Positions 12,780 to 34,948 of a stretch of 64,000 nucleotides of DNA are shown piece after piece. The notes under the pieces were generated by a model that did not search any database, was not told the DNA's origin, and worked only from the letters and a program-made list of their open reading frames with translations. A program made the position numbers and the translations under genes. Each line of letters starts with the position of its first letter. Positions within the stretch are counted from its first letter, which is position 1. Source of the DNA: Frateuria hangzhouensis (GTDB lineage: Bacteria > Pseudomonadota > Gammaproteobacteria > Xanthomonadales > Rhodanobacteraceae); assembly GCF_026410505.1 (NCBI RefSeq), contig NZ_JAPMIU010000007.1, positions 1 to 64,000 of the forward strand, in the 5' to 3' direction.

Positions 12780-12803
12780 GCCGTTGAGCGGTAAATTGAA
12801 AGA

Positions 12804-12963: not shown

Positions 12964-13366
12964 GCGGGGAGCCCCTCGATGGGTATCCGCATATGCCTCC
13001 GGACCCGTGCCTTTTTTTGCTTCTGCCCCTTCCCTGTTTGCAGGGGAGGGCTGGGAGGTGTGCTCTTCGCCTGGACGGAAGACCGCAAGAAAAAAGGACG
13101 GCCGATCCACCCGCCGCACTGACAAGCACGGGGTTGCGCGGGAAGTTGGCGGCCGCGCGAAAGGCGCTCCGCGCCAGCTTCGATAAAGGGGACAGGCAGC
13201 CGCGTTGCGGTTTCCTTCCGCCGCTCGCCAGGAACAGCCGCCGTTCACTTCGAACCCGACGCCAGAGAGGCGCTTCTTTGAAGGCCCATGTCGAGACGAG
13301 GCGCATCAATGGCTCATGACGCGCCTGCGCCTGCCGCGCGTATCGCGCAGGGTGGCCGGTTCGTCG

Positions 13367-13402
13367 GGTAGCCGGGCTGGTGGGCTGAAGCCCACCCTAC
13401 GA
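13367..13402. repeat. Extragenic GTGGGCTGAAGCCCACC repeat
   Basis: The short imperfect dyad TGGGCTGAAGCCCACCCTAC belongs to the same family as the paired copies at 44370-44438 and 52956-53040. Confidence 0.6.
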
Positions 13403-13559
13403 TGTTGAGGCCGGGTGCGGGCTTGATGCAGGCAGACGGCTTCCCGTACGCAACCACCTTGCAAGTGCGTACGGGCGCGCTCCTGCAGAAGGCGAAAATG
13501 CATGGATGTGGGCGCCAAGGAACTGGGTCATCCCATTCCCCGGTAGAGCGCGATGAACC

Positions 13560-13591
13560 AAAAAAAGCCGGAGCAGGTGGCCTGCCCCGGC
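13560..13591 (-). terminator. Rho-independent terminator of beta-helix paralogue 5
   Basis: Minus-strand stem GCCGGGGCAGG / CCTGCTCCGGC followed by a run of seven T residues, 41 bases beyond the stop at 13632. Confidence 0.9.
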
Positions 13592-13631
13592 TTCCACGTG
13601 GCCATGGCCACGTGCTCTGCGTTCGCGTCGA

Positions 13632-14771: not shown

Positions 14772-14870
14772 CAGGGTTGGACTCTCGTCACGTGAAAGTG
14801 ACGCGGAAGATGCAGGACCTTCACGGGGCTAACAAGCTCGACCATTGGCCGGTGTTCATGTAAATCGCAC
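14772..14870 (-). promoter_or_regulatory. Shared leader of beta-helix paralogue 5
   Basis: Minus-strand order CATGAA, CCAATGG, TCGAGCTTGTTAGC, GTGAAGG, GCAT, inverted repeat CGTCACTTTCACGTGACG and GAGAG directly before the start region. TTGTTA and GCAT are 16 bases apart. Confidence 0.7.
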
Positions 14871-15179
14871 GGGCGCTGCCGGCCCCCGGCTGGGAGCGAT
14901 CACCGCATGGCAAAAGCCCGCGACGGGCCGGCCGCGCTCCGCGCCTGGTTACCCGTCAAAGGGCCAGGCGCGCCGCGCGTGCCCGTGAGACGCGAGGGCT
15001 CGATCACCGGCTGGAAGCCCGCCCGGATGTGACGTCTTCATGCACGCATCATGCGTGGGCAGGCGGCTGCCTGTGTGCCCTGCCAGGCAATCTGTGATGC
15101 GCATCGCGCATGGGTTTGCGGCCCTTTCGGCCGTCCCGGGGTGTTTTGCCAACGTGGTCATAAATTCACCAGTTGGGGC

Positions 15180-15250
15180 TTCTTGTAGAGCTTGCTTAGG
15201 TGCGTGACGAAAGCGCATTTTTTGCGTGAGCTTCGCGTGACGAAGTTCTA
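15180..15250 (+). promoter_or_regulatory. Shared leader of beta-helix paralogue 6 (plus type)
   Basis: Contains GTAGAGCTTGCTTAGG, GTGACG, GCAT and GTGAGCTTCGCGTGACGAAG. The last 20-base block is identical to that before paralogue 4. Here it ends 35 bases before ATG 15281, compared with 7 bases for paralogue 4. Confidence 0.65.
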
Positions 15251-15280
15251 CCCGACAACATTCCGAGACCCCGCTCCATC

Positions 15281-16468
15281 ATGAACATTTCCGCCAACAA
15301 TCAGAAGCTTGCCGTTGCCTCCCCGCGCGCCGCCCGCGCCCTCGCTTCTGTGAAGAAGCCGTTGATGCTCGCGCTCGCCGCGCTCGCGCTTTCCGCCGTT
15401 GCCGTGCCTGCCTTTGCGGCCACCGAGTGGTGGAGCGCTACCCCCAAGGTGAACATCGGCAAGGACGTCACTGTCGACGTGCGCGCCAAAGGCGCCCTTG
15501 GTGACGGCGTGCACAACGACACCGCCGCGTTCCAGGCCGCGATCGACTCGCTGCCGGCCACCGGCGGCACGGTCAATGTGCCGGCGGGCCGTTACATGAT
15601 CGACGCGGAGAAGTCGATCCGCTTGCGCTCGCACACGCGCCTGCAGCTGGACTCGAACGCCACGCTGGTGGTCATTCCCAACAGTGTCGGCCGCTCGCGC
15701 CTGATCCGCGTGTGGAAGGTGACCGACGTGCGCATCGTCGGCGGCTCGATGGAAGGTGACCGCATGCTGCACAAGGGCACCAACGGCGAGTGGGGCATGG
15801 GCATCGACATCATCGCTGCCAAGAACGTGGTGGTGAAGGGCGTCCGCCTGTCGAACTTCTGGGGCGACGGCCTCTACATCGGCGCCACTGGCAGCGGCAG
15901 CACGCTGAAGCGTTCGGAGTACGTGACCATCGTGGGCGTGGTGTCGGACAACAACCGTCGCCAGGGCCTGTCGATCACGCCGGCGTCGCACGTGTACGTG
16001 GTCAACAGCACCTTCAGCAACACCAATGGCACGCTGCCGGAGGCGGGTATCGACATCGAGCCGATGACGCAGGGCCCGACCGACAACATCCGCCTGGAGA
16101 ACAACAAGTTCATCGGCAACCATGCCAACGGCATCGAGATGCACGTCAACATCTCGGACATCGCCATCGTCGGCAACACCATGAGCGGCAACCGCGGTTT
16201 CGGCGCGTTGGGCGTGGGTTCCTCGTTCATCACCTACACCGGCAACACCATGACCGAGAACGGCCTGGCCGCCATCGGCATGACCGGTGCCGCGCACGGC
16301 AACACGGTCACGGGCAACACGCTGCACTACAACAGCACCCGCTACATGTCGCCCACCAAGGCCGGTGGCGGCCTGGACCGCGACCTGCAGATCGGCGCCA
16401 AGACCTACGACATCTCGGTGTCCGGCAACGTGTTCTCCAACCCCAAGTACAACACCTACACCCGGTAA
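15281..16468 (+). CDS. Exported right-handed parallel beta-helix protein, paralogue 6
   Basis: 395 residues. The Sec signal (core KKPLMLALAALALSAVAVP) is cleaved near AFAA at about residue 47. Mature motifs are TEWWSATPKVNIG, VDVRAKGALGDGVHNDTAAF, EWGMGIDIIAAKN, SNFWGDGLYIGATGSG, NNRRQGLSITPAS and EAGIDIEP, with a KYNTYTR C-terminus like paralogue 4. It has its own leader and terminator. The substrate is unknown. Confidence 0.8.
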   Translation: MNISANNQKLAVASPRAARALASVKKPLMLALAALALSAVAVPAFAATEWWSATPKVNIGKDVTVDVRAKGALGDGVHNDTAAFQAAIDSLPATGGTVNVPAGRYMIDAEKSIRLRSHTRLQLDSNATLVVIPNSVGRSRLIRVWKVTDVRIVGGSMEGDRMLHKGTNGEWGMGIDIIAAKNVVVKGVRLSNFWGDGLYIGATGSGSTLKRSEYVTIVGVVSDNNRRQGLSITPASHVYVVNSTFSNTNGTLPEAGIDIEPMTQGPTDNIRLENNKFIGNHANGIEMHVNISDIAIVGNTMSGNRGFGALGVGSSFITYTGNTMTENGLAAIGMTGAAHGNTVTGNTLHYNSTRYMSPTKAGGGLDRDLQIGAKTYDISVSGNVFSNPKYNTYTR

Positions 16469-16667: not shown

Positions 16668-17642
16668 TTATCGCGCGACGCCCCATCGCTGGGAGATCGT
16701 CTTGTAGAACGCGGCCGGGCGCAGGAAGCGGTCCTTGATCTTGGACGACAGCCGGATCCCCAGGAATGCCGCGAGCAGCGAGGTCATGTAGCTGTAGCCC
16801 CTGGCGTTGAAGCCGTAGGACCGCGCCCGTGCCCGCCATTTCATGCCGACCTCGTTCTTGTCGTGCGCGAAGGCATTCCATGCCGTTACGCAGCAGTACC
16901 GGCCGAGCGCGTTCCGGTTGCTCTGCTGGATGTCCTTGCGCACGCCCGGGCCGGCCCATGGCTCCAGTTGCCGGAACACCACTTCGGTTGCGTGCAGCAG
17001 GTCGTCGATCTTGGCGATGCTGACGCGGTAGGGCGACGGGTGCTGCCAGTAGACGCCGTTGCCGACGCTCGATACCGACACGGCCAGGCCCTTGAGGAAG
17101 GCCCTGATCATGATCTCGCCGTCGTCGTTGGTCTTCAGTTGCTGGTCCCAGGCGCCGATGCGCCGCACGCTGGCGGTGTTCCACGCCACGCTGCAGGGCG
17201 GAAAAAACACCGGCCGCACCCAGTGGCAGATCCACTCGTCGTTGCTCAGCTTGTCCGGGATGCGCGCCACGCCCCGGCGGCGGCCCTCGCCGTCGTAACG
17301 CCACGGCCCGATCGCGATGTCCGAGCGCTCCTGTTCGAGCACGCGAACCAGCCCGCGCAGCAGGCCGTTTTCCACGTAGTCGTCGGCGTCGAGGAACATG
17401 ACGTACCTGGTCGTGACGAGTTCCAGGCCGGCGTTCCTGGCCGCCGGAGCGCCCTTGTTCGTTTCGTGCGTCACCAGCCTCACGCCCTCGCAGGCGCGCA
17501 CGACGCTCGCGGTGTCGTCGAACACGCCGTCCTCGACCACGATGATGTTGCCGGGGGCAACACCCTCCGCAATGGCCGAGTCGATCGTCCGTTTGATGGT
17601 CCGCTCGGATCGATACGAAGGAATGACGATACTCAGTTCCAT
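16668..17642 (-). CDS. Family 2 glycosyltransferase (copy A of a tandem pair)
   Basis: 324 residues. GT-A motifs start at residue 2 (ELSIVIPSYRSERT), with VVEDGVFDDT near residue 35, GAPAARNAG and the metal-binding FLDADDYVENGLL near residue 83. The C-terminal half has PPCSVAWNTASVRRIGAWD and a Cys pair (YCCVTAWNAFAH). The start is supported by GAGG six bases upstream. It is about two-thirds identical by eye to the next gene over its whole length. It should transfer a sugar from a nucleotide donor in EPS assembly; specificity is unknown. Confidence 0.88.
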   Translation of the reverse strand: MELSIVIPSYRSERTIKRTIDSAIAEGVAPGNIIVVEDGVFDDTASVVRACEGVRLVTHETNKGAPAARNAGLELVTTRYVMFLDADDYVENGLLRGLVRVLEQERSDIAIGPWRYDGEGRRRGVARIPDKLSNDEWICHWVRPVFFPPCSVAWNTASVRRIGAWDQQLKTNDDGEIMIRAFLKGLAVSVSSVGNGVYWQHPSPYRVSIAKIDDLLHATEVVFRQLEPWAGPGVRKDIQQSNRNALGRYCCVTAWNAFAHDKNEVGMKWRARARSYGFNARGYSYMTSLLAAFLGIRLSSKIKDRFLRPAAFYKTISQRWGVAR

Positions 17643-17841: not shown

Positions 17842-18801
17842 TCATCGCTTGTATCTCAGCTTGTAGAAGATGCCCGAGCGCTCGAAGCGGGCGCGGGCCT
17901 TGGACGACAGGCTTACCCCCAGGAACGTCGCGAGCAGCGAGGTCTTGCTGTTGTAGCCCTTGTTGCGAAAGCCGTACGCCCGGGCCTTGGCCATCCACCG
18001 CATGCCGCTGTCCTTGCGGTCGTGCGCATAGGCGTGCCACGCCGTCACGCAGCAGTACCGCCCCAACGCGTTGCGGTCGCTTTCGGGAAAGTCATTGGCC
18101 GCGCGGGAGCCCGCCCAGGTTTCCAGTTGCCTGAAAATGATGTCGGTGGCGTGCAGCAGATCATCGATCTTCGCGTTGGTGACCCGATGCGGGGAAGCGT
18201 GCTGCCAGTAGACGCCCTGGCCGGCGTCCGAGGTCGAAACCTTCAGCCCGCGGACGAACGCCCGGATCATGAGTTCGCCGTCCTGGTTCTTTTTCAACCG
18301 CGCATCCCACGCGCCAATGCGCCGGATGCTGTCCACGTTCCACGCCACGCAACATGGCGGGAAGAAACGCAGCCGCGTCCAGGAGAAAATCCACTCGGCA
18401 TTGCTGAGCCGTTCGGGCGTTCGCAGCATGCCCGGCTGGCGGTCCTCGCCGGCGTAACGCCATGGCCCGATCGCGAGGTCCGAGTGCTGTTGCTCCAGGG
18501 CCCGCACCAGGCCCGGAAGCAGGCCGTTTTCCACGTAGTCGTCGGCGTCCAGGAACATCACGTAGCGGGTCGCGACGTTCTGCAGGCCGACATTCCTGGC
18601 GTAAGGAGCGCCCCGATTGGTTTCCAGGGTGATCAGCCGGACCCCGGGGCAGTCCGCGACGACGCGTGCGGTGTCGTCGAACACGCCGTCCTCGACGACC
18701 ACCACGTTCTCGGGGGAAACGCCCTCCGCAATCGCCGATTCCACGGCGCGCCTGACCAGCTTGCCGGATCGGTAGGAAGGAATGACGACACTTAGATCCA
18801 T
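17842..18801 (-). CDS. Family 2 glycosyltransferase (copy B of a tandem pair)
   Basis: 319 residues, same architecture as copy A: DLSVVIPSYRSGKL at the N-terminus, VVEDGVFDDTARV, GAPYARNVG, FLDADDYVENGLLPG, then PPCCVAWNVDSIRRIGAWD and YCCVTAWHAYAHD. The start has AAGGGA upstream. The two copies lie head to tail with 199 bases between them, so this is a local duplication that may have given two linkages in one repeat unit. The gap shows no gene. Confidence 0.88.
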   Translation of the reverse strand: MDLSVVIPSYRSGKLVRRAVESAIAEGVSPENVVVVEDGVFDDTARVVADCPGVRLITLETNRGAPYARNVGLQNVATRYVMFLDADDYVENGLLPGLVRALEQQHSDLAIGPWRYAGEDRQPGMLRTPERLSNAEWIFSWTRLRFFPPCCVAWNVDSIRRIGAWDARLKKNQDGELMIRAFVRGLKVSTSDAGQGVYWQHASPHRVTNAKIDDLLHATDIIFRQLETWAGSRAANDFPESDRNALGRYCCVTAWHAYAHDRKDSGMRWMAKARAYGFRNKGYNSKTSLLATFLGVSLSSKARARFERSGIFYKLRYKR

Positions 18802-19092: not shown

Positions 19093-19869
19093 TCAGGCCT
19101 TGATCATCGTTATGGTTTCCACCGGCTTGCTCAACACCACGTAGCAGGCGCTGGTGAGCGTCGGGAACGGATGTTCGACCAGCCACGAGGAAAACCAGCG
19201 GTGCAGGTTGCGCATGCCCGGGATGCGCCGGTAGTAGGCGTGATGGCCAAAGAAGCCGATGTACTCGTCGACCACGTATCCCAGGCCCTGCAGGCGCGCG
19301 AACTGCCTGTGCGTCGGGCCGCGGCACCAGCTGTAGTAGGCGGGAAACTTGCCCTTGTTGCCGTCCTTTTCGCGACCCGGTTCGAGCCACTGCAGCAGGC
19401 GGTCGGCCACCCGCTCGGGCATGAGCCGGTTGGCCACGAACGGCGGTGCGTAAAGCGTGGGGAAATAGTGGATCGCCTTGCCGCCGGGGGCCAGCAGCCG
19501 GAACACGTTGCGGTGCATCTGCTCGCCGTTCTTCACGTGCTCGGCCAGCATCTTGCTGAAGACCAGGTCATGGCGCCCCTCGATGCCTTCGAACGCCAGC
19601 TCCGCCGCACCGATGTCGCCACAGACCTTGTGGTAGCCGGCCGGTGCCTTGGCCAGTTCGGTCGGGGAGATGTCCAGGACGGTGTATTCCACGCCGTGCT
19701 CGCGCAGGAATTCCAGCGGTATCGCGGGGTTGGCTCCGCCTCCCAACTCCAGCACATGCCGCGCTCCGGAGCGGATGATCATGTCCTGCACGTATCCGGG
19801 ATAGCCCAGCCAGGCGTTCCGGGAGGTTGCGTAATGAACCTGCCCCAATGTTGCCGCCGATCGTTTCAT
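19093..19869 (-). CDS. Class I SAM-dependent methyltransferase
   Basis: 258 residues from ATG 19869, chosen because AGGAGAG lies six bases upstream; the frame is open 12 codons further. SAM-binding motif I is VLELGGGANPAIP near residue 40, followed by YTVLDISPTEL (motif II) and HDLVFSKMLAEHV. The rest is a methyltransferase-11-like domain with a C-terminal region rich in aromatics. It is divergent from the flippase and sulfotransferase run. A sugar O-methyltransferase for the EPS is the context-based guess; a lipid or small-molecule target cannot be excluded. Confidence 0.75.
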   Translation of the reverse strand: MKRSAATLGQVHYATSRNAWLGYPGYVQDMIIRSGARHVLELGGGANPAIPLEFLREHGVEYTVLDISPTELAKAPAGYHKVCGDIGAAELAFEGIEGRHDLVFSKMLAEHVKNGEQMHRNVFRLLAPGGKAIHYFPTLYAPPFVANRLMPERVADRLLQWLEPGREKDGNKGKFPAYYSWCRGPTHRQFARLQGLGYVVDEYIGFFGHHAYYRRIPGMRNLHRWFSSWLVEHPFPTLTSACYVVLSKPVETITMIKA

Positions 19870-20168
19870 GTCAACTCTCCTCTGGTTGACGGGCGTGAAA
19901 CGCAAGCTAAGGCTTTAATACATATCTAACCTCCGGTGAAGCAAAGGTAAACCCCAGCTGACTGGCCGGCATGGTGTCCTCAGCCGGCCATCGGAGGCGG
20001 TTTGCGGGCGAGCATGGACGCCCGCCGAAACGGCTGGCGACGGCCCGGCTATACGGTCGTTTCACGTGCAGGCGGCCAACGTTTGCGGTCTCGACAATAC
20101 CGCTCGAGCCTGCTTTTGCTGCGTTCCCGATATCAATGACAACCACGCGTGTACGCGGTGCCCACCGC

Positions 20169-21677
20169 ATGTTCGATATGCAGCACGTCCACCGCGATCT
20201 TCGCCGCCACAGCGTGCGTGGCGCGGCCGCGACGCTGCTCAGCCAGGCTGGCCTTTTCTGCATTCAGGTGGTGGGCATGGCGGTGCTCGCCCGCTTGCTG
20301 CTGCCGGCGGATTTCGGCGTGTTCGGCAAGACCGTCGCGCTGACCGGCTTCATCACCGTACTCAGCTCGGGCGGCCTGTCGCTGGCCACCGTGCAGCGGG
20401 CGGAGATCACCCACGAACAGGTAAGCACGCTGTTCTGGCTCAACCTGGCGCTGGGGTTGGCGATCGGTGCGGCGCTCGCGGCGCTGGGTCCGGCCATGGC
20501 GTGGTTCTACCGCGATCCGCGGGTGCTGTGGCTGGTGGTGGCGTTGGCCGGCTCGGTCGTCGTCGACAGCCTGGCAATCCAACACACCGCGCTGATGCAG
20601 CGGCAGATGCGCTTCGGCACGATCGGCTCGCTCAACGTCACCGCGCGCATCGTCGGTTTCGTGGCCGCGATATGGAGCGCCTGGATGGGCGCCGGGTACT
20701 GGGCGCTGGCCATCCAGGTTTACGGCACCGGCGTGACCCGGCTGGCGCTGACGGTCTGGAGCTGCCGCTGGCTGCCGAGCCTGCCCAGGCGCAAGAGCGG
20801 CGTGCGGCCGATGGTGGCGCTCGGCGCCAACCAGACCGGCTTCTCGATCCTCAACTTCGCCAACCGCAACATGGACAACATCCTGATCGGCCGCTACGTG
20901 TCCGATATCGCGCTGGGCTTCTACAGCCAGGCCTACCGGTTGTTGCTTTTGCCGGTACAGCAGATCAACACGCCGATCTCCTCGGTGGTGATGCCGGCAC
21001 TCAGCCGCCTGCAGGACCAGCCCGAGCGCTTCGCCCGCTTCTACTACCGGGCGCTGGGCACGATCACGTTCCTCGGCATGCCGGTGGTCGGCTTTCTGCT
21101 GGTGGACGCCCGGGCGATCATCGAAATCGTGCTCGGGCCGAAATGGCTGCCAGTGGTACCGATCTTCCAGGCGCTGGGCATCGCCGCATTCTTCGGCACC
21201 TTCAACGTGGCCGGCGGCTGGGTGTACAGCTCGCTGGGTCGCACCGACCGCCAGCTGCGCCAGCAACTGGTGGTCAGCCCGGTCACCATCCTGGCCTTCT
21301 TCGCGGGGCTGCCCTGGGGCGCCCTGGGCGTGGCGCTTTCCTACAGCGTGACGCGCGCGCTGATTTCCTGGCCGACCCTTGCCTACTGCTATCGCGGCAC
21401 GCCGGTGAATACCGGCACCACCTTCGCCACGCTGGTGCGGCCGGCGGTGGCGGCGATCACGGCCGGCCTGGTGCTGTGGGCGATGCACCGGTTCGTCTGG
21501 ACGGGCTGGCAGGCGAGCTGGGTGCTCGTGGACATGGCGCTCTACGGTGCGACTTACATGGCCCTGTGGTTCGTGATGCCCGGCGGTCGCGAGCGCCTGC
21601 GCCAGTTCCGCGAGATCGCGGACGAATTGAAGAACCGTGGAAAGCGCAAAACGGACGCCGTCGCGAGTCCGGATTGA
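20169..21677 (+). CDS. Wzx-like polysaccharide flippase (MOP superfamily), copy 1
   Basis: 502 residues from ATG 20169 (ATG 20136 and 20178 are alternatives; none has a strong ribosome site). About 12-14 membrane segments begin near residue 17 (AAATLLSQAGLFCIQVVGM). The early ARLLLPADFGVFGK and later NFANRNMDNILIGRYVSD with FYSQAYRLLLLPVQQ are typical of lipopolysaccharide biosynthesis proteins of the Wzx/TuaB/WzxC class. They move undecaprenyl-linked repeat units across the inner membrane. It heads the run that continues with three sulfotransferases, suggesting that it handles the unit that becomes sulfated. Confidence 0.88.
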   Translation: MFDMQHVHRDLRRHSVRGAAATLLSQAGLFCIQVVGMAVLARLLLPADFGVFGKTVALTGFITVLSSGGLSLATVQRAEITHEQVSTLFWLNLALGLAIGAALAALGPAMAWFYRDPRVLWLVVALAGSVVVDSLAIQHTALMQRQMRFGTIGSLNVTARIVGFVAAIWSAWMGAGYWALAIQVYGTGVTRLALTVWSCRWLPSLPRRKSGVRPMVALGANQTGFSILNFANRNMDNILIGRYVSDIALGFYSQAYRLLLLPVQQINTPISSVVMPALSRLQDQPERFARFYYRALGTITFLGMPVVGFLLVDARAIIEIVLGPKWLPVVPIFQALGIAAFFGTFNVAGGWVYSSLGRTDRQLRQQLVVSPVTILAFFAGLPWGALGVALSYSVTRALISWPTLAYCYRGTPVNTGTTFATLVRPAVAAITAGLVLWAMHRFVWTGWQASWVLVDMALYGATYMALWFVMPGGRERLRQFREIADELKNRGKRKTDAVASPD

Positions 21678-21824
21678 CGCATCCCATGCCGGACGCGCTG
21701 CAAGGAGAGAGTCAGTGGACATGATCGTATCTTGCCGACACGAGCTCGCCATCCCGGCAACCGGCACGGCCGCAAGCTGGCCGGCGCGGACGCGTCATCA
21801 CGTCGACACGAGGAGTATCTGCGC

Positions 21825-22703
21825 ATGACATCCACCCTTGCCGCCCCGGGACCGCGCCTGCGACGCTTCGCATGGGTCTGCCGGCAGCGTTATCGCCATC
21901 AGCGAGCCCGCGTTGCCCAGCGGCCCGTGATCGTCAGTGGCAACCAGAAATCGGGCACCACGGCGATCGCCGCCCTGCTGGCGCGCGCCACCGGTACCAG
22001 TTTCAGCAATGATCCGTTCTGGCAGATCGCACACTTCGACACCGGCACGCAGGTGGTTTCCGAGGTGCTTGGCGGACGGCTTGCGCTGGACCGGGTGATC
22101 GATCGCCACCGTGCCTATTTCGCCGCCGACGTCATCAAGGATCCCAACTTTTCCTTCATGCAGCCGCAGCTGCAGAAGCGGTTCCCCGACGCCCGACGCG
22201 TGTTCATCGTGCGCGACCCGCGGCAGAACATCCGCAGCATTCTCAACCGATTGCATCTGGACGGCCGCCTGGCCGAGCTGGGGCCGGCGCAGCGGGCGGC
22301 GCTGGCGCAGGTGCCCGGCTGGCAGGTGATCCTCGATGGCAGCGACCTGGCGCTTGCGGGCGCCGACCACATCGAAAGGCTGGCGCGGCGCTGGAACCTC
22401 GCGGTGGAGAGCTACCTCGCTCACGCCGACGGTGTCGTGCTGGTGCGCTACGAGGATTTCGTCGCCGACAAGCCGGGCCAGATCGCCAACCTGGCGCGCC
22501 GGCTGGGCATGGCCGCCACCGTCGACATCCGGTCCGAGCAGGAGCGCGCCTATCAACCGCGGGGCAATCGCAGCGTGGCGCCCGCCGAGTTCTTCGGCGA
22601 GCGCAACCTGGGCCGGATCGAATCGCTCTGCGGCCCCCTCATGCGCCGGTTCGGCTACATGGTCGGCGCGAACACGGGCGCGACCGACAGCGCCATGCCA
22701 TGA
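21825..22703 (+). CDS. Sulfotransferase 1
   Basis: 292 residues from ATG 21825 with AGGAG upstream. The PAPS 5'-phosphosulfate loop is VIVSGNQKSGTTAIAALLAR near residue 35, and the 3'-phosphate site is RVFIVRDPRQNIRS near residue 125, matching the sulfotransferase superfamily. It transfers sulfate from PAPS to an acceptor, here probably a sugar hydroxyl before or after repeat-unit assembly. The stop overlaps ATGA of the next frame, so it is translationally close to sulfotransferase 2. Regiospecificity is unknown. Confidence 0.85.
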   Translation: MTSTLAAPGPRLRRFAWVCRQRYRHQRARVAQRPVIVSGNQKSGTTAIAALLARATGTSFSNDPFWQIAHFDTGTQVVSEVLGGRLALDRVIDRHRAYFAADVIKDPNFSFMQPQLQKRFPDARRVFIVRDPRQNIRSILNRLHLDGRLAELGPAQRAALAQVPGWQVILDGSDLALAGADHIERLARRWNLAVESYLAHADGVVLVRYEDFVADKPGQIANLARRLGMAATVDIRSEQERAYQPRGNRSVAPAEFFGERNLGRIESLCGPLMRRFGYMVGANTGATDSAMP

Positions 22704-22729
22704 GCGGACAGGATCCGGAGGAGTCAGGC

Positions 22730-23701
22730 ATGAACGACACACCGATCGAACACGCGCTCGTCGTGGGCTGCCCGCGCTCGGGCACCACCTTGCTGCAATC
22801 GACGCTGGCCGCGCATCCGGACGTGTTCTCCACGCCGGAGACGCACTTTTTCGCGGACGCCATCGGACAGCGTGCCGAACGCCTGTTCGCGCTGCCGCCC
22901 AGCGGCTGGCGCGAGCGCCAACGCCGCCGGTTGCGCCAGTGGCGCGCACAGCTCGGTCTAATCCACCCGCGGGGCGCGCGCCGCCGGCTGTGCAGCTTCC
23001 TGCGCCACGGCGGCGGGGAAGACCTGTTGTTCCGGGTGCCCCCGATGCCGCTGTTCCTGGCGCCACTGGCACGGTTGTACGCCGAGCTGGGCGACGAACT
23101 GGCGCGCCGGGACGGGCGGCGCCTGTGGCTGGAAAAGACGCCGGGTCACCTGCACTACCTGGATGCGATCGAGCAGTACCTGCCGGATATCAAGGTGATC
23201 TGCGTGGTGCGTTCGGCGCCGGACAACATCGCCTCGATGTACGACGTGGCGACGCGCTATCCGGACCGGTGGCGCCGCGAATACCGCACCGTCGAGGGCT
23301 GCGTCGGCCGCTGGATCGCTTCCGCGCGCGCCGCCGAGGCGCAGGCCCACCGCGGCGGACGCATGTTTCTGGCCTACGAGGAACTGGCCGCGAATCCCGC
23401 TGGCACGCTGGAGCGCGTCTGTGCCTTCCTCGGGCTCACTTTCGAGCCGGCGATGATCGAGCAGCGCGGAGCCACCTACGACCGCATCGTGGGTGATCAC
23501 GAACCGCACAAGCAGAACGTGCGCGAGACCATCGGGTCGCGCAACGGCACCAAGTTCTCGCGGCTGTTCACCCCTTCGCAGCAGGCGCACATCGTGGCCG
23601 CGCTCGGCGACTGGCCCGGGCGCATGGAAGCGTTGTGCCGCGGCCATCTCCACACCGTTTCCAACGGCGCACATCCTGCCATCCCGGCCGTGCGCGCCTG
23701 A
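22730..23701 (+). CDS. Sulfotransferase 2
   Basis: 323 residues from ATG 22730, preferred over ATG 22700 because GGAGGAG sits seven bases upstream; the longer start would overlap the previous stop. The PAPS-binding loop is VVGCPRSGTTLLQSTLAAHP near residue 10, followed by FSTPETHFFAD; the 3'-phosphate motif is IKVICVVRSAPDNIAS near residue 155. A late HKQNVRETIGSRNGTKF segment is conserved in this sulfotransferase branch. It differs strongly from its two neighbours, so each of the three enzymes probably modifies a different position or sugar. Confidence 0.87.
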   Translation: MNDTPIEHALVVGCPRSGTTLLQSTLAAHPDVFSTPETHFFADAIGQRAERLFALPPSGWRERQRRRLRQWRAQLGLIHPRGARRRLCSFLRHGGGEDLLFRVPPMPLFLAPLARLYAELGDELARRDGRRLWLEKTPGHLHYLDAIEQYLPDIKVICVVRSAPDNIASMYDVATRYPDRWRREYRTVEGCVGRWIASARAAEAQAHRGGRMFLAYEELAANPAGTLERVCAFLGLTFEPAMIEQRGATYDRIVGDHEPHKQNVRETIGSRNGTKFSRLFTPSQQAHIVAALGDWPGRMEALCRGHLHTVSNGAHPAIPAVRA

Positions 23702-23720
23702 CCATTCGCAGGGATCGACG

Positions 23721-24794
23721 ATGACGTACTTCCAGGGGGCCGCCCGCTGCATGCCTACCGCCCATGCCCCAACCGCCTCCGATGACGGCCTGCCGGCCGG
23801 CGCCTCCGCCATCGCGCTCGACCCGCCGCCGATATTCCTGCTCGGCTCGCACAAGAGCGGCAGCAGCCTGCTGCGCAGCCTGCTCGACGGCCATCCGTCG
23901 CTGGCCGTGTTGCCGAAGGAGACCCACCTGTTCCAGTTCACCAATCACTGGGTGGACTACCGCCGGCGGCGCAACCTGCCGCGGGCGATGGACCGGTCGG
24001 AGTTTTTCGATCAACTGCTCGGGCAGATCCGGGAGGACACCCGCGGCCACGACCCCTATGCCGATGCCCCCGGCTTCAGCTATCGCATGGAGATTCTGGA
24101 GCCCCGCCTGCGCGCGCTGGATCCGGCCGACATGCCGGCGTTCCTGCTCGGCTACATGCAGGCCGCCTACGAGGCGTCCTTCGGCCAGCCGCCGGCCGCG
24201 GGACGGGCGCTGGTGGAGAAGTCGGTCGAGCATGCCGAGTTCGCCTACGTGCTGGCGCGCTATTTTCCCGGCGCGCGCTTCGTCCACATCGTGCGCAACC
24301 CCTACGCCACACTGGTGGCGCTGCGCCGCATGCTGCAGAAAATGGCCGGGCGCTTTCCGTACCTGTGGCCGGTCGCCTCGTCGCTGCACAATTCCTACCA
24401 CCAGCTGTTCACCAACCGGCTGGCGCTGCCCAACTACTTGTGCGTGCGCTTCGAGGACCTGGTGTCCGATACCGCCGCGACCATGCGCGACGTGGCCGGG
24501 TTCCTCGGCATCGACTATGACGAGGCGCTGGTGCATCCGACCTCGCAGGGCGAGCACTGGCAAGGCAACAGCACGAGCAACGAGGCGTTCGGCGGCATCT
24601 CGCAGCGACCGCTGGAGGCCTGGAAATCACAGATCACCGATTACGAGATCGCGCTGGCCAACCTGGTCGCTGCACCTGTTCTTGACGCTTTCGGCTACGA
24701 GCGACTGGAGCCGCGCCATCCGAACCGGTGGATCCGTGGCGAACGGCCGCGGGCCTATGCGGTGAACCGGCTGGCGCTGTGGCTCGGTCCCTGA
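23721..24794 (+). CDS. Sulfotransferase 3
   Basis: 357 residues from ATG 23721, 19 bases after the preceding stop. The loop FLLGSHKSGSSLLRSLLDGH (near residue 36) has Ser in place of one Thr of the usual SGTT. FVLPKETH-like VLPKETHLFQF and the 3'-phosphate site FVHIVRNPYATLVALRR near residue 193 complete the PAPS-binding set. It is the last of three contiguous sulfotransferases and is followed 125 bases on by the PAPS-producing genes. The acceptor is unknown. Confidence 0.85.
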   Translation: MTYFQGAARCMPTAHAPTASDDGLPAGASAIALDPPPIFLLGSHKSGSSLLRSLLDGHPSLAVLPKETHLFQFTNHWVDYRRRRNLPRAMDRSEFFDQLLGQIREDTRGHDPYADAPGFSYRMEILEPRLRALDPADMPAFLLGYMQAAYEASFGQPPAAGRALVEKSVEHAEFAYVLARYFPGARFVHIVRNPYATLVALRRMLQKMAGRFPYLWPVASSLHNSYHQLFTNRLALPNYLCVRFEDLVSDTAATMRDVAGFLGIDYDEALVHPTSQGEHWQGNSTSNEAFGGISQRPLEAWKSQITDYEIALANLVAAPVLDAFGYERLEPRHPNRWIRGERPRAYAVNRLALWLGP

Positions 24795-24843
24795 ACGGAC
24801 GGCGCAAACGCGGGATATTCCGGCCGCGAATAACGCCCGCTTA

Positions 24844-24893
24844 TTGATTTCTTTCACGAGTGCTTACCTAGATTGCACGATCGACGGTGCACT
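24844..24893 (+). promoter_or_regulatory. Possible promoter and dyad before cysD
   Basis: TTGATT at 24844 and TAGATT at 24869 are possible -35/-10 hexamers, but the 19-base spacing is long. The dyad TGCAC-N8-GTGCA lies just downstream (24876-24893). The assignment is weak; it matters because it would allow cysD expression apart from the sulfotransferases. Confidence 0.3.
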
Positions 24894-24919
24894 ACGCCCT
24901 ACAGAGAAGGAAAGACATT

Positions 24920-25903
24920 ATGGCCTTGGCTGCTATGCCGGATCCGAACGGCATTCCGCGCAGTGATGCTGCGGACATCGGCAATACGGACGTCCACACT
25001 CTTGCCGCTTCCTCGCACCTGAAGCGCCTGGAGGCCGAAAGCATCCACGTCATGCGCGAGGTGGCCGCCGAATTCGCCAACCCGGTGATGCTCTATTCGG
25101 TCGGCAAGGATTCCTCGGTGCTGCTGCACCTGATGCAGAAGGCGTTCTTCCCGGCGCCCCCGCCGATCCCGATGATGCACGTGGATACCACCTGGAAGTT
25201 CCGCGAGATGATCGCCTTCCGCGACCGCCGCGCGAAGGAAACCGGTTGCCGGCTGATCGTGCACACCAACCAGGAAGGCGTGGCGCAGGGCGTGAACCCC
25301 TTCAGCCACGGCGCCAGCGTGCACACCGACATCATGAAGACGCAGGCGCTCAAGCAGGCCCTGGACAAATACAAGTTCGACGCGGCCATCGGCGGCGCGC
25401 GCCGCGACGAGGAGAAATCGCGCGCCAAGGAGCGCGTGTTCTCCTTCCGCAACGCCCAGCATCGCTGGGATCCAAAGAGCCAGCGCCCGGAGTTGTGGAA
25501 CCTCTACAACACGCGCATCCACAAGGGCGAGAGCGTGCGCGTGTTCCCGCTGTCCAACTGGACGGAGCTGGACATCTGGCTCTACATCTATCGCGAGAAC
25601 ATCGAGGTGCCCTCGCTCTATCTCGCCAGGGAGCGCCCGGTGGTCGAGCGCGATGGCCAGCTGATCATGGTCGACGACGACCGCATGCCGCTAGCGCCCG
25701 GCGAGGTGCCGCAGATGCGCAAGGTGCGCTTCCGCACGCTCGGCTGTTATCCGCTGACCGCGGCGATCGAGTCGGACGCCGACACCCTGCCGGCGGTGAT
25801 CCAGGAAATGCTCGTGGCGCGCACCTCCGAACGGCAAGGCCGCATCATCGACCAGGACGCCTCGGCTTCCATGGAAAAGAAGAAGCAGGAGGGCTATTTC
25901 TGA
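24920..25903 (+). CDS. cysD: Sulfate adenylyltransferase small subunit CysD
   Basis: 327 residues from ATG 24920 with AGAAGGAAAG upstream. The PP-loop is [19 protein letters not shown] near residue 57, and [20 protein letters not shown] is the diagnostic CysD block. The C-terminal [13 protein letters not shown] is typical. With CysN it makes adenosine phosphosulfate from sulfate and ATP, driven by GTP hydrolysis. Its stop TGA overlaps the ATG of cysNC by one base, as expected for coupled subunits. Here it lies next to sulfotransferases rather than cysH/cysI, so sulfation rather than cysteine synthesis is the likely job. Confidence 0.95.
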
Positions 25904-27807
25904 TGGATCTCGAAACGACCGAAAACCAGTCGACCGCCGCCGTCACCGCGATTGACGATTACCTTCAGCGGCACGAAACCAAGAGCTTGCTGCGCTTCAT
26001 CACCTGCGGCAGCGTGGATGACGGCAAGAGCACCCTGCTGGGGCGCCTGCTGTACGACACCAAGTTGCTGTTCGACGATCAGCTGGCGGCGCTCGAAGGC
26101 GACAGCCTGCGCCATGGCACGCAGAACGGCGAACTGGACTTCGCGCTGCTGGTGGACGGCCTTGCCGCCGAGCAGGAGCAGGGCATCACCATCGACGTGG
26201 CCTACCGCTTCTTCAGCACGGACAAGCGCAAATTCATCGTCGCCGACTGTCCGGGGCACGAGCAGTACACCCGCAACATGGCCACCGGCGCCTCCACCGC
26301 GGATCTCGCCGTGGTGCTGGTCGACGCGCGCAAGGGACTGCTCACCCAGACCCGCCGCCACACCTATATCTGCGGCCTGCTCGGCATCCGCCACGTGCTG
26401 CTGGCTGTCAACAAGATGGACCTGGTCGACTACGCGCAGGGCACCTTCAAGCGCATCGAGAGCGATTACCGCGTGGTGGCGGCGCAGATGGGCATCGAGC
26501 ACGTCACCGCGGTGCCGCTTTCGGCGCTGCACGGCGACAACGTGTCCAGCCGCTCGCAGTCGATGGGCTGGTACAACGGCCCGAGCCTGCTCGAGCATCT
26601 GGAAACCGTGCAGGTGGAGCACGCCACCAGCAAGCTGGGTTTCCGCATGCCGGTGCAATGGGTCTGCCGTCCCAACCAGAACTTCCGCGGTTACGCGGGG
26701 CAGGTGGTGGCCGGCTCGATCGCGCCGGGCGACGAAGTCGTGGCCTTGCCCAGCGGGGTGCGCTCGCGCGTGGCGCGCATCGTCACGCCTGATGGCGATC
26801 TGACGCGCGCCGTCACCGGCGACGCGGTGGCCATCCAGTTGGAAGACGAGCGTGACATCAGCCGCGGCGACGTGATTGCCGCGACCTCCGCGCCGCCGCA
26901 GGTGGCCGACCAGTTCACCGCGCACCTGCTGTGGATGGACAGCGCGGCGCTGCTGCCGGGGCGCCCGTACTGGATGAAGGTCGGCGCGCGACTGGTCACC
27001 GCGCAGGTCACCGAGATCAAGCATCGCGTCGACGTGAACACGCAGGAGAAGCGCCCGGCCAAGCGCCTGGAGCTCAACGAGGTGGGGTACTGCAACCTCG
27101 GCCTGGACCACGCCATTGCGTTCGAGTCGTACGAGGATTGCCGCGAGCTCGGCGGCTTCATCCTGATCGACCGCCAGACCAACGCCACCGTCGCCGCCGG
27201 CACGCTCAACTTCGCCCTGCGCCGCGCCGACAATATCCACTGGCAACACACCGACATCGACCGCACCGCGCGCGCCCGCATCAAGGGCCAGATACCGGCG
27301 TGCGTGTGGTTCACCGGCCTGTCGGGCTCGGGCAAATCGACCATCGCCAACCTGGTCGAGAAGCGCCTGCACGCGATGGGTTATCACACCACCATGCTCG
27401 ACGGCGACAACGTGCGCCACGGCCTCAATCGCGACCTGGGCTTTACCGAGGAAGACCGCGTGGAGAACATCCGCCGCGTGGCGGAGGTGTCCAAGCTGAT
27501 GGTCGATGCGGGCCTGATCGTGATGGTGTCGTTCATCAGCCCGTTCCGCAGCGAGCGTGGCATGGCGCGCCGGCTCTTCGAGGATGGCGAGTTCCGCGAA
27601 GTGTTCGTCGACACGCCGCTGGAAGTCTGCGCGCAGCGCGATCCCAAGGGCCTCTATGCCAAGGCGCGCGCGGGCCAGATCCGCAACTTCACCGGCATCG
27701 ACTCGCCATACGAGCAGCCCGAGCGGCCGGAGTTGCATCTGGAAACCGAGAAGGCCTCGCTGGACGAACTGGCGCAGCGGGTCATCGACAGCCTGCTCGC
27801 CCGCTGA
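25903..27807 (+). CDS. cysNC: Bifunctional sulfate adenylyltransferase large subunit / APS kinase (CysN-CysC fusion, NodQ-like)
   Basis: 634 residues. The GTPase half has G1 [19 protein letters not shown] near residue 36, [12 protein letters not shown] and NKMD, followed by two EF-Tu-like beta domains (to about residue 440). The APS kinase half starts near residue 463 with the Walker [16 protein letters not shown] and [16 protein letters not shown], and runs to the end. The protein activates sulfate and then phosphorylates APS to PAPS, the donor for sulfotransferases. The fused form matches NodQ and other sulfation-dedicated enzymes, and no PAPS reductase is nearby. A perfect 24-base GC palindrome follows the stop. 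Confidence 0.95.
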
Positions 27808-28194: not shown

Positions 28195-29634
28195 ATGATT
28201 TCCCGCCGACGCTTCGTGCAGTCGTCCATGACGGCAGCACTGATTCCCCTGCTACCCAAGGCCGTGCTCACCGCCAGCGCCGCCGGCAGCGGGGACACCC
28301 CGGCGATCCGGCAGAGCTGGGAAGAGTTCGCCCAGGGCCCGCACCTGCAGCCGTTCATCGACGCGATCGGTTCGATGCGTGACAACAAGGACGAGACCGA
28401 TCCCAACAGCTGGTACTACTGGATCAAGACCCACCAGGACCACTGCCCCCACCGCAAGCCCTATTTCCTGGCCTGGCACCGCGGCCTGCTCAAGCGCTTC
28501 GAGGGCCGGCTGCGCCGCGTCTCCGGCATTGCCGACTTCCAGCTGCCGTACTGGAACTACTACGCCAATCCACAGGTGCCTGCAGCCTTCCTGGTCGATC
28601 ACTCGCCGTTGTGGCGCAACAAGCGCACGTCGTCGGACGTCACCGACGCGCTCAGCCTGGCGCCATTCGCCGACGACGTGACCAACTTCGAGCGAGGGCT
28701 GGAGGACGCCTTCGAACCGACCCTCGAGACCGCTCCGCACAACCCGGTCCACAATCTCATCGGCGGGGCGATGTCCAACATCACGTTCTCGCCGGCCGAT
28801 CCGCTCTTCTACGTGCACCACGCCAATATCGACCGGCTCTGGGCCGCCTGGAGCGCGGCCGGCAACGGCCGCGAGATGCCGCCGGAAAACGATCCCTATT
28901 GGCAGGGCGACAATCTCGATTACGGCCCGGCGATCCGCTCGATGCCGAAGGTGTGGACCTACTCGACCACCAGCACCTTCCTGGGCTACGCCTACGACGA
29001 CGAGACCATGCCGGCGAGCCTGCCGAGCTATCCGGCCTCGATGGCGCGTCCGGCCAGCCAGCCGGTGCAGCTGCTTTCGCCGGCGCATCTGGACGCCACG
29101 ACGAAGCAGCTCGGCGGCACCGGGCAGTTCGCGCTCGACGAGCAATCCACCACCTTCGACATTCCGATGCCGGCCTCCAGCGCCAACCACATCCGCAGCC
29201 TGATGATCGGCAAGTCGTCGGCGACCCGTAACGGCGGTCCGCTCGAGCTGGTGCTGGAGAACGTGCGGCTGACTGGCCTCGGCGAGGAGGGCGGCTTCTT
29301 CTACAAGGTATTCCTGAACCTGCCCGCATCCGGCTCCGCCATCCGGCGCGAACGCGACTACCTGTTGGGCATGATCGGTCCCTTCGAGATCAGCGTCGCC
29401 CAGATGAGCGCACGCATGGCCGCGGGCAAGCCGATGCACGGCTCCATGGATGCCCACGCCAAGGGCCCGGTGCAGGCCACCATGCGCTTTCCCGTCATGG
29501 AGTCCCTGCGCCGGATCTGGCCGGCCAACCTGGACAAGCTGAGCGTGTCGCTCGTGCGCGTGGGGCGCCAGGGCCGTGCCGGGCGCGTGATCGTGGTCGA
29601 CCGGATGCGACTGGAGGCGAGCGAGCCCAGGTAA
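28195..29634 (+). CDS. Exported tyrosinase family copper oxidase
   Basis: 479 residues from ATG 28195 with GAGGGA upstream. A twin-arginine signal (ISRRRFVQSS) at the N-terminus suggests export in folded, copper-loaded form. Copper site A lies in KTHQDHCPHRKPYFLAWHR (residues about 80-100); Cys-Pro-His there could form the Cys-His thioether seen in some tyrosinases. Copper site B is HNPVHNLIGG with FYVHHANIDRLWAAW (near residues 182-222). The second half is the C-terminal domain. The enzyme would oxidise phenols to quinones. Nothing in the neighbours shows its substrate; melanin-like pigment or cross-linking are possibilities. No caddie protein is seen. Confidence 0.88.
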   Translation: MISRRRFVQSSMTAALIPLLPKAVLTASAAGSGDTPAIRQSWEEFAQGPHLQPFIDAIGSMRDNKDETDPNSWYYWIKTHQDHCPHRKPYFLAWHRGLLKRFEGRLRRVSGIADFQLPYWNYYANPQVPAAFLVDHSPLWRNKRTSSDVTDALSLAPFADDVTNFERGLEDAFEPTLETAPHNPVHNLIGGAMSNITFSPADPLFYVHHANIDRLWAAWSAAGNGREMPPENDPYWQGDNLDYGPAIRSMPKVWTYSTTSTFLGYAYDDETMPASLPSYPASMARPASQPVQLLSPAHLDATTKQLGGTGQFALDEQSTTFDIPMPASSANHIRSLMIGKSSATRNGGPLELVLENVRLTGLGEEGGFFYKVFLNLPASGSAIRRERDYLLGMIGPFEISVAQMSARMAAGKPMHGSMDAHAKGPVQATMRFPVMESLRRIWPANLDKLSVSLVRVGRQGRAGRVIVVDRMRLEASEPR

Positions 29635-29677
29635 CCCACGTTCGGAGCGGACATGGGACTCTGCGCGAGCATGCTGA

Positions 29678-29702
29678 CCCTCTCCCTGCGGGGAGAGGGA
29701 AG
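29678..29702. repeat. Extragenic CCCTCTCCC palindrome
   Basis: CCCTCTCCCTGCGGGGAGAG is an inverted repeat of the family also found around 46893-47010 and 61283-61437. It lies between two convergent genes and may act as a bidirectional transcription end. Confidence 0.55.
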
Positions 29703-29721
29703 GGCCTGCCCTTATCGTCCG

Positions 29722-31053
29722 CTAGCGTCCTTCGCGCGCCGAACGCAGTGCCTGCGCGGCCATGGACGGATGGCTGAAGGCGTGCTGGTCGTAGAACGCT
29801 TCCAGCCGCGCCGTGCAGCCGCGGATATCCATGTTCTCGACCATGTGGCGCCGGCCGTTGGCGCCGAAGCTGCTCGCCAGCTCGTCGCTTTGCAGCAGCG
29901 CCCGCAACCCCTCGCGCAGCGCGGCCACGTCCTTCTCGGCGTGGGCGAAACCAGTGCTGCCGTGGACGATGCCTTCGGTGGCCCCGCCGCGCGCGGAGGT
30001 GATCACCGGCACGCCGGCGGCCTGTGCTTCCAGCAGCACGATGCCCATGCCTTCGGCGTCGCCGTTGTCGGCGGTGATGCTGGGCAGGCAGAACACGCGC
30101 GTCTGGTCCAGGCACTCGCGAACCTGCTCGGCCGGCAGCGCGCCGCGGAAGGTGGCACGCACGCCGCGCTCCCGCGCATAGGCTTCCAGCTCCGGTGCCA
30201 GCGGGCCGTCGCCGACGATCATCAGCCGCGATTGGGGGAACTCGTGCTGGATCTGCTCGAAGGCCTGCAGCAGGTAGCGGCAGCCCTTCTTTTCCACCAG
30301 GCGGCCCACGTAGAGGATGTCGCGGCGTGCTGCGATCGGGATGGGGCCGGGGGTGAAGCGTGCCGTGTCCACGCCGATCGGACGCACGGTGATCTTGTTC
30401 TCCGGAAGGCCGAACTCGATCGCCGATTCGCGGATCGCCTTGGAGACCGCGACGAAATGCACGCGGTGATCCTGCGCCAGCTTCAGCAGCCCGGCGGGGA
30501 ACTTGCGCATGTGCCGCCCGCCGTTGCCCGCTTCCCACCAGCCGCGGTAGGTGGTGATGTCATAGCCGTGCAGGGTGACCAGCGTGGGCAGGTCGAGCTG
30601 GCGCGCGACCGGCCAGATCCGGTAGGCATCGGTGGCAAAATGGATGTGCAGCAGGTCCGCGCGTTCGGCCTTCAGCGCCTTCAGCCGGGCCCACGACCAG
30701 ATCAGGTAGGGCGATCCCAGGTTGGCCATGCGCCGCGCGAAGCGGTGCCGGTAGCCCAGCACGCGCACGTCCAGGCCATCCAGCGCCAGCCCCTGCTTGA
30801 CCATGCCGTCGCCCGCCAGGATCCCGCGCCAACCCGAGAGCATGCGCACCTGCTCGCGGATGAAGGTTTCGGAATAGGGCAGCAGGCGTGACTTGTAGAC
30901 GATCACGGTCGGCCGGTGGCGCGGGTCTTTCGGGGCTTCGTTCATGGACGCGTGTTCGCTCCGGCTGACGGCAGGCTCGCGGGCGCATTCGGGAAACCCG
31001 CCGTCCACAGCGGGCGCCACGGCGGTCGCCGGGCGATGGTTCTGCACGATCAT
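29722..31053 (-). CDS. Family 4 glycosyltransferase
   Basis: 443 residues from ATG 31053, which has AGGAAGG upstream; an internal ATG at 30945 gives 407 residues and begins close to the conserved part (TVIVYKSRLLPYSETFIREQ), so it is a real alternative. GT-B features are HLHFATD-like HIHFATDAYR and HGYDITTYRG in the first half, then RLVEKKGCRYLLQAFEQI and the donor site AEGMGIVLLEAQAAGVPV. It resembles colanic-acid-type transferases (WcaL/AmsK). It lies 47 bases after the ATP-grasp gene in the same direction as the second flippase and WecA-like gene. Confidence 0.88.
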   Translation of the reverse strand: MIVQNHRPATAVAPAVDGGFPECAREPAVSRSEHASMNEAPKDPRHRPTVIVYKSRLLPYSETFIREQVRMLSGWRGILAGDGMVKQGLALDGLDVRVLGYRHRFARRMANLGSPYLIWSWARLKALKAERADLLHIHFATDAYRIWPVARQLDLPTLVTLHGYDITTYRGWWEAGNGGRHMRKFPAGLLKLAQDHRVHFVAVSKAIRESAIEFGLPENKITVRPIGVDTARFTPGPIPIAARRDILYVGRLVEKKGCRYLLQAFEQIQHEFPQSRLMIVGDGPLAPELEAYARERGVRATFRGALPAEQVRECLDQTRVFCLPSITADNGDAEGMGIVLLEAQAAGVPVITSARGGATEGIVHGSTGFAHAEKDVAALREGLRALLQSDELASSFGANGRRHMVENMDIRGCTARLEAFYDQHAFSHPSMAAQALRSAREGR

Positions 31054-34790: not shown

Positions 34791-34885
34791 CGTCCTGATC
34801 AGGCCATGCCGGCAGACGGAACATCCCCGCCGCACCGCACACGGCACCACCTGCACACGCAGGCAAAACCGAATATCCCCGTTCC

Positions 34886-34948
34886 TTAGGCCTTGGGTGA
34901 CAAGGCTTCGGCAGAGAGTAGGCAGCCACCAGTGCAATTGACGTCAAT
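34886..34948 (-). promoter_or_regulatory. Palindromes upstream of the WecA-like gene
   Basis: The perfect 12-base palindrome ATTGACGTCAAT (34937-34948) and the hairpin GCCTTG-GGTGA-CAAGGC (34890-34906) lie 100-160 bases upstream of the start. They are candidate operator or leader elements; no regulator is assignable. Confidence 0.35.

Follow-up and report, generated by a model that had tools for sequence, protein, structure and literature searches.

A sulfate-activation pair and three sulfotransferase genes in one run

The DNA analyzed here (the window) comprises 64,000 nucleotides at the start of contig C7 in the 61-contig, 3.74-Mb genome assembly of Frateuria hangzhouensis. Our subject is a run of six genes at positions 20169–27807, which had been described, from the DNA letters alone, as a flippase, three dissimilar sulfotransferases, cysD and a fused cysNC, all in one direction with small gaps or overlaps. 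Profile searches bear out this original prediction for every gene. All six frames are open and co-directional on the + strand, in the order given, and Pfam matches back each of them. The run begins with a Wzx-type flippase of the MOP/polysaccharide transporter kind (20169–21677, analyzed from 20172; PF13440, E = 8.4e-81; NF007773 below its cut-off). Next come three sulfotransferases: ST1, the one common to the loci of the genus (21825–22703; PF13469, E = 3.7e-13, 50.7 bits; PF00685, E = 3e-5), ST2 (22700–23701; PF13469, E = 7e-32, 111.9 bits) and ST3 (23721–24794; PF13469, E = 1.4e-25, 91.3 bits). The last two genes are cysD, for the small subunit of ATP sulfurylase (24920–25903; TIGR02039 and NF009214 over cut-off), and cysNC, for a fusion of the ATP sulfurylase GTPase subunit with adenosine 5'-phosphosulfate (APS) kinase (25903–27807; NF004035; PF01583, E = 1.8e-72). 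Intergenic distances along the run are 147, –4, 19, 125 and –1 bases. Among NCBIfam models, those for CysD and CysNC are matched above their cut-offs, and the flippase and the three sulfotransferases are below cut-off or unmatched. CysNC scores 1043 bits against NF004035 ('bifunctional sulfate adenylyltransferase subunit 1/adenylylsulfate kinase'), where the cut-off is 715. Models for CysD, CysN and APS kinase are thus all exceeded, as expected of a pair that synthesizes 3'-phosphoadenosine 5'-phosphosulfate (PAPS). A promoter/terminator scan gave eight terminator-like sites, compared to 4.7 expected.

PAPS genes accompanied by sulfotransferases are a hallmark of sulfated polysaccharide biosynthesis, according to PMC11641403, and here both stand with glycan genes in one locus. 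Because the PAPS pair and the sulfotransferase-family proteins lie inside an exopolysaccharide (EPS) locus, the product is probably a sulfated surface glycan. We consider it very likely that the run provides the sulfation functions of an EPS locus of the Wzx/Wzy type, with flippase, ST1, CysD and CysNC as its core and an acidic sulfated product. The sulfated EPS or surface glycan of the original prediction is therefore probable; its acceptor we infer.

The core of the run is conserved in all six genus genomes sampled

The genus was sampled with six genomes, that of the window (G000) and five others (G005, G031, G046, G060 and G074), and the family with 117. Wzx, an ST1-family gene, CysD and CysNC occur at the same locus in all six genus genomes, beside a WecA/DASS/TrmB block whose WecA-like gene and DASS-like transporter adjoin the locus each time. 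A chance neighborhood was rejected on the basis of this recurrence. Co-occurrence of the sulfotransferases with cysD and cysNC in relatives, proposed earlier as a check, is thus complete for the ST1 core; ST2 is found at the locus in two genomes (G000, G031) and ST3 in three (G000, G005, G074). The locus of G031 also encodes a Sulfotransfer_2 family member and a protein with hexapeptide repeats. In G046 and G060, the additional genes are for a Sulfotransfer_4 protein, TupA and two proteins to which Pfam assigns no family. For the two unclassified proteins of G060, no Pfam family was matched even at E ≤ 5, and a PDB search with one of them gave matches only above E = 0.2. Such differences in sulfotransferases between species would alter the sulfation pattern.

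At the family level, an ST1 profile search (E ≤ 1e-25) found 6 of 117 genomes, exactly the six of the genus, and an ST2 search (E ≤ 1e-40) found 2 of 117. APS kinase domains, by comparison, were detected in 113 of 117 (E ≤ 1e-20). Searches of plasmids with ST1 and ST2 gave no match at E ≤ 1e-10.

The surrounding locus resembles one for a Wzx/Wzy exopolysaccharide

The window opens with the C-terminal part of Ugd (UDP-glucose dehydrogenase; 8–550, + strand; PF03720, E = 1.5e-30), truncated by the contig start. Also on the + strand are a polysaccharide pyruvyl transferase (130–1881; PF04230, E = 1.6e-27, matched from residue 192, the real start being probably further in), a family 2 glycosyltransferase (1827–2810; PF00535), an EpsG-family protein that is a probable Wzy-type polymerase (2815–3861; PF14897, E = 5.6e-26) and a group 1 glycosyltransferase (6632–7987; PF00534, PF13692). 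Closer to the run, the – strand carries two more family 2 glycosyltransferases (16668–17642 and 17842–18801; both PF00535) and an S-adenosylmethionine-dependent methyltransferase (19093–19905; PF08241). On the 3' side of the run, the window contains a TupA-like gene and a second flippase, as well as two – strand genes: one for a WecA-like initiating glycosyl-phosphate transferase (33609–34937; PF00953; TIGR02380 below cut-off) and one for a CitMHS/Na-sulfate-symporter-like transporter with TrkA-C domains (35024–37300; PF03600, PF02080, PF00939; DASS model TIGR00785 below cut-off). This DASS-like transporter may be a sulfate importer, its substrate being putative.

In G031, a genome assembled in one contig, the locus starts with a divergent wza followed by wzb, wzc and ugd. 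The complete Ugd sits after wzb and wzc and ahead of the pyruvyl transferase, and a glycosyltransferase is also found at the head of the locus. A Wzx/Wzy EPS is the most plausible product. Given the gene content of the locus (Ugd, pyruvyl transferase), the glycan probably contains uronic acid and pyruvate.

Two further groups of genes lie in this part of the window. Five similar right-handed beta-helix proteins are encoded at 8211–16468 in mixed orientation (PF13229/PF12708/PF05048), with similar genes in the locus of relatives; these may be secreted and act on the glycan as lyases or epimerases. After cysNC, at 28195–30891, are a tyrosinase-domain protein and a protein without a Pfam match; several genomes of the genus have relatives of these genes at their EPS locus.

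The sulfotransferases and their acceptor

ST1, ST2 and ST3 share 25–30% pairwise identity, and all exceed the PF13469 cut-off of 27 bits. ST1 is the weakest Pfam match of the run, its alignment being limited to profile positions 106–213. Its motifs are intact: KSGTT (K42) at the 5'-phosphosulfate-binding (PSB) site and VRDPRQNIRS (S138) at the 3'-phosphate-binding (3'-PB) site. Across the six genus sequences, S138 is always kept, and the PSB lysine is kept in five, including the window copy. ST2 has R26 in the PSB site, E47/H49 as candidate base and S179 in the 3'-PB site; ST3 has K45 and candidate base E67/H69. All three therefore carry a 5'-PSB Lys or Arg (K42, R26 and K45), with the roles of this residue and of the 3'-PB Ser defined after PMC6637879 and PMC11625862. 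These motifs, like the gene identities, synteny and distribution given above, are direct observations. The original prediction also spoke of up to three sulfation sites. As an upper bound, three genes allow this; as a count it was made from genes alone, and ST3 lacks the 3'-PB serine. There may be fewer sulfate groups than enzymes.

Do these enzymes act on an EPS? In PDB searches, ST2 and ST3 match tyrosylprotein sulfotransferases (best E 1e-6 and 4e-5, respectively), and the polyketide synthase sulfotransferases 4gox and 4gbm match them equally well or better. For ST1, the sole match was 2zq5, at E = 0.003 with the sequence alone and 0.0019 with an ST1 alignment. On a rival reading, for which the tyrosylprotein matches speak, the target would be another one: the O-antigen of lipopolysaccharide, a lipid, or tyrosine of a secreted peptide as for RaxST of Xanthomonas, where raxP, raxQ and raxST serve peptide sulfation (PMC4216712, PMC6637879). 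The flippase and the WecA-like enzyme also fit O-antigen. However, the Pfam matches of the scanned neighbors include no peptide secretion or transporter family (the rax genes themselves were not searched for), most matched neighbors are glycan genes, and the G031 locus starts with wza–wzb–wzc. We therefore regard another acceptor as unlikely and keep EPS as the preferred one.

PAPS supply and cysteine synthesis

The absence of cysH and sulfite reductase from the vicinity, noted earlier, extends to the whole genome except contig C20 (E ≤ 0.001). An assimilation operon lies there, with TauE (divergent), CysJ, CysI, CysH and Sat. At the same threshold, the genome has three PF01507 matches, two of them CysD, and two PF03460 matches in one protein. 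The C20 CysH classifies as a PAPS reductase, scoring 268.9 bits with TIGR02057 (cut-off 254.2) and having a single Cys; with TIGR02055, the APS reductase model, it scores 125.9 bits (cut-off 235.3). Profile searches found no kinase domain in the C20 Sat. Only two APS kinase domains are detected in the genome (E ≤ 0.001), one in the window CysNC and the other in a CysNC encoded on contig C24, where cysD–cysNC is preceded by ugd, flippase, sulfotransferase and glycosyltransferase genes, a locus of glycan type. Hence the second sulfate-activation pair and the cysHIJ set that the original prediction suggested seeking elsewhere are both present, the former on C24 and the latter as a separate cysJIH operon on C20, and the window pair was rejected as the only copy.

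The C24 region (L005, 621–12644) is itself a second candidate sulfated-glycan locus. Its GC content is 0.57 for 621–9800, 0.53 for cysD and 0.69 for cysNC. Recombination between the C24 cysD and cysNC was considered in view of the GC jump (0.53/0.69) but not adopted, as trees of both proteins place the C24 copy alike.

The description of the window module as 'dedicated' goes further than these data allow: the assimilation operon is without an APS kinase, its CysH is PAPS-type, and both APS kinases found belong to glycan-type loci. Since CysH takes PAPS and no APS kinase domain was found outside the two CysNCs, one CysNC probably also feeds cysteine synthesis, with PAPS from the window or C24 supplying the PAPS reductase. 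Contig C20 ends ∼350 bases after sat, in sequence that looks repeat-like by eye, and a cysC there could have been missed; in G005, G046 and G060, 3.4–4.0 kb beyond sat contain no CysNC match. A bolder and quite tentative idea is that in this genus the cell's whole PAPS supply has been handed to sulfation loci. The assimilation operon would have retained ATP sulfurylase and PAPS reductase without an APS kinase, with cysteine synthesis borrowing PAPS from CysNCs that have sulfotransferase genes as neighbors, and the EPS locus would serve as a dock for sulfotransferases that are exchanged between species and write different patterns on a shared acidic glycan.

Across the genus, there are 12 strong CysNC matches, two per genome, and a sulfotransferase match lies within ∼11 kb of every one. 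Six are the EPS-locus copies. Four second copies (G005, G031, G060 and G074) stand beside another sulfotransferase; the C24 copy has a sulfotransferase ∼4 kb before cysD; and for G046's second copy there are partial sulfotransferase matches ∼10 kb away, the best piece scoring 58.6 bits. In the second pair of G031 (L119, 8935–13403), a divergent TPR-sulfotransferase starts 81 bases from cysD. Among the named CysNC loci in the matches listed, a homemade sulfotransferase profile, seeded with the window and C24 enzymes, found a sulfotransferase in 8 of 80 with whatever DNA was available and in 7 of 44 with full 10-kb flanks.

Two side observations concern these copies. The CysD–CysNC lineage of L119 is divergent, its CysNC being 65–66% identical to that of the window; comparable copies occur in G005, G060 and G074, whereas searches of G000 and G046 gave none. 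Three weak matches to APS kinase, in G060 (C14:211307, 22.5 bits), G031 (C1:3296992, 22.0 bits) and G046 (C1:3675624, 21.7 bits), all slightly above the cut-off of 21.1 and in short frames of 190–219 aa, were excluded from the count of 12 and perhaps represent another kinase family.

The dependence of CysH on PAPS raises the question of whether the window cysD–cysNC is mainly a housekeeping pair for sulfate activation that moved beside EPS genes, the sulfotransferases tapping a shared PAPS pool incidentally. An assimilation operon that has no APS kinase of its own is consistent with this. So are the closest named relatives among the matches listed (L038–L043, from Lysobacter, Xanthomonas, Pseudoxanthomonas, Arenimonas and an unclassified Lysobacteraceae, each labeled Lysobacteraceae): all six have cysJ, cysI and cysH within ∼6 kb, and no sulfotransferase was found with them. 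But the genome has a second cysD–cysNC on C24, and all six genus genomes carry the pair within the EPS locus. Moreover, G031 retains the pair while apparently lacking the genes that would use it for cysteine. No CysH was found in G031, its two PF01507 matches being its two CysDs, and no sulfite reductase domain, a domain present in five of the six genus genomes. Its sat and tauE are spaced by ∼450 bases, with no CysJ, CysI or CysH between them (L132, 3722–6112), at the place where cysJIH lies in G000, G005, G046 and G060. Both CysD–CysNC pairs of G031 are open. We compared the EPS-locus genes of G000 and G031 with our own Nei–Gojobori script, and the ratio of nonsynonymous to synonymous divergence (dN/dS) was ∼0.15 for CysD (0.050/0.330) and ∼0.09 for CysNC (0.046/0.519), compared to ∼0.44 for ST1, ∼0.36 for ST2 and ∼0.29 for Wzx. 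With CysH and sulfite reductase missing and CysD–CysNC intact, G031 appears to keep PAPS synthesis where the usual route to cysteine is impossible. This is the strongest support for a sulfation role, strong but not proof. We regard a mainly housekeeping pair as distinctly unlikely. The apparent loss of cysJIH also predicts that G031 requires reduced sulfur.

Proposed route to a sulfated exopolysaccharide

For the sulfation reading that we favor, the following route is proposed. CysD and CysN would convert sulfate and ATP to APS, which the CysC part would phosphorylate to PAPS. Still in the cytoplasm, ST1, together with ST2 and ST3, would then transfer the sulfuryl group from PAPS to hydroxyls of the undecaprenyl-linked repeat unit, which the flippase would export for polymerization. 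We place sulfation before export because PAPS is cytoplasmic and because of the gene order. With a repeat unit that probably has uronic acid and pyruvate, the product would be strongly acidic. PAPS from the window or the C24 locus would also reach the PAPS reductase and support cysteine synthesis. Enzyme activity, acceptor, sulfate number and PAPS sharing are in this scheme predictions from sequence.

Several observations speak against this reading. ST3 and cysD are separated by 125 bases, and a single transcript is only an assumption; the promoter scan gave no promoter-like site, compared to 0.8 expected. The arrangement varies in the genus: Wzx is inverted in G005, and ∼4.6 kb, including the TupA gene and genes on both strands, separate ST1 from CysD in G046 and G060. 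As to the enzymes, the ST1 residues examined include no clear catalytic base, ST1 of G005 carries Asn at the position of the PSB lysine, and the predicted structure of ST1 was unusable (mean predicted local distance difference test score, or pLDDT, of 35). In all three ST3 sequences, the window copy (A200) included, alanine takes the place of the 3'-PB serine, and ST3 may perhaps be an unusual or altered sulfotransferase. With two APS kinase domains and a PAPS-type CysH, selection for cysteine synthesis could also explain why cysNC is retained. Finally, G031 is listed as 99% complete, and its gene losses are thus unproven.

Comparison with known sulfation loci

Sulfation gene sets in polysaccharide clusters are already known, and the present locus extends them to another lineage. 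It is less usual in that the sulfotransferases at this one position vary and in that no housekeeping APS kinase was found. The cluster for the capsular polysaccharide of Vibrio sp. KMM 8419, whose sulfated structure has been solved, likewise combines second copies of cysC, cysN and cysD with three sulfotransferase genes (PMC11641403). In our case too, a further PAPS gene set exists outside the EPS cluster (on C24), yet it is also in a glycan-type locus. The Vibrio strain differs in being marine, in having an ABC-transporter (Kps) capsule and in having separate cysN and cysC genes, whereas the locus described here is of the Wzx/Wzy type, with a fused cysNC behind three sulfotransferases. The capsular cluster of Cobetia marina KMM 1449, also with a solved structure, contains a bifunctional cysN/cysC, cysD, a sulfate permease gene and sulfotransferase genes (PMC11766843). 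That cluster again belongs to a marine Kps capsule and includes cysQ, a gene not searched for here; the DASS-like transporter of our locus is a putative counterpart of the permease.

Two other clusters share the Wzx/Wzy mode. The xss cluster for synechan in Synechocystis PCC 6803 has two sulfotransferases of distinct subfamilies, and sulfation of this EPS was demonstrated chemically (PMC8205485). Unlike our locus, it lies on a cyanobacterial megaplasmid with its own regulators, and the available text of that paper describes no PAPS genes; there, the authors state that they know of no EPS cluster from other bacteria that contains sulfotransferases. In the soil bacterium Actinoplanes missouriensis, wps-1 has two sulfotransferases of different families and a predicted sulfated EPS (PMC13390465). 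This organism is an actinomycete, sulfation is a prediction, and PAPS and cysD go unmentioned in the available text.

Among xanthomonads, PAPS synthesis by raxP/raxQ feeds the sulfotransferase raxST in Xanthomonas oryzae, but PAPS synthesis there is described as a core housekeeping function and the sulfotransferase acts on the peptide RaxX, whereas the genes described here are in an EPS locus (PMC4216712, PMC6637879). The proposed sharing of PAPS has a parallel in Vibrio vulnificus, where one pool is described as serving cysteine synthesis and EPS control (PMC6113621). In the open-licence literature, we found no report of sulfated EPS from Lysobacter or Dyella, which does not prove its absence from print, and none, by title, from xanthomonads or Rhodanobacteraceae.

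Gene clusters are known for few of the sulfated polysaccharides that bacteria make. Those of Vibrio and Cobetia belong to capsules of marine strains, and that of Actinoplanes is predicted only (PMC11641403, PMC11766843, PMC13390465). If our reading is true, a Wzx/Wzy locus of xanthomonad kinship that has several sulfotransferases and PAPS enzymes of its own, and that all six genomes sampled from the genus share, would provide sulfated EPS and new sulfotransferases acting on carbohydrates. The varying sulfotransferases, together with G031, would allow tests of what each enzyme adds and of how PAPS is shared between coat and cysteine.

Descent of the CysD–CysNC pair

Two CysNC trees were made, the first with 40 of 91 sequences and without the window copy, the second with 26 of 92 and the window copy included; for CysD, 41 of 90 sequences entered the tree. 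All six EPS-locus copies fall into a single clade (support 100/100 for CysNC and 99/95 for CysD), with the copy on C24 and G046's second copy next to it. In the trees of both proteins, a supported branch sets this group and the Lysobacteraceae copies apart from those of Mesorhizobium and Aminobacter. How the EPS group, the Lysobacteraceae and the four divergent second copies branch relative to one another is unsettled. From these trees, the pair looks like a xanthomonad cysD–cysNC that entered an EPS locus.

In rhizobia, NodPQ, duplicate enzymes of the CysD/CysNC type, supply surface-glycan sulfation, and the original prediction had called the fusion 'NodQ-type'. As a statement of kinship, this fails: neither the CysNC nor the CysD tree groups the pair with rhizobial copies, as judged by two Phyllobacteriaceae sequences (L103 and L115) whose identity as NodPQ is unverified. 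The similar gene pair and purpose, and weak matches of ST2 and ST3 to NoeE that fall far under its cut-off, might point to acquisition of a NodPQ-type pair from rhizobia for glycan sulfation. In view of the trees this is highly improbable, and NodPQ kinship was rejected.

A separate feature of the CysNC data concerns three sequences, from a bin labeled Candidatus Marinimicrobia (L045), an uncultured bacterium (L046) and a Rhodospirillaceae bin (L050). These form one close clade, which suggests either a mislabeled bin or transfer.

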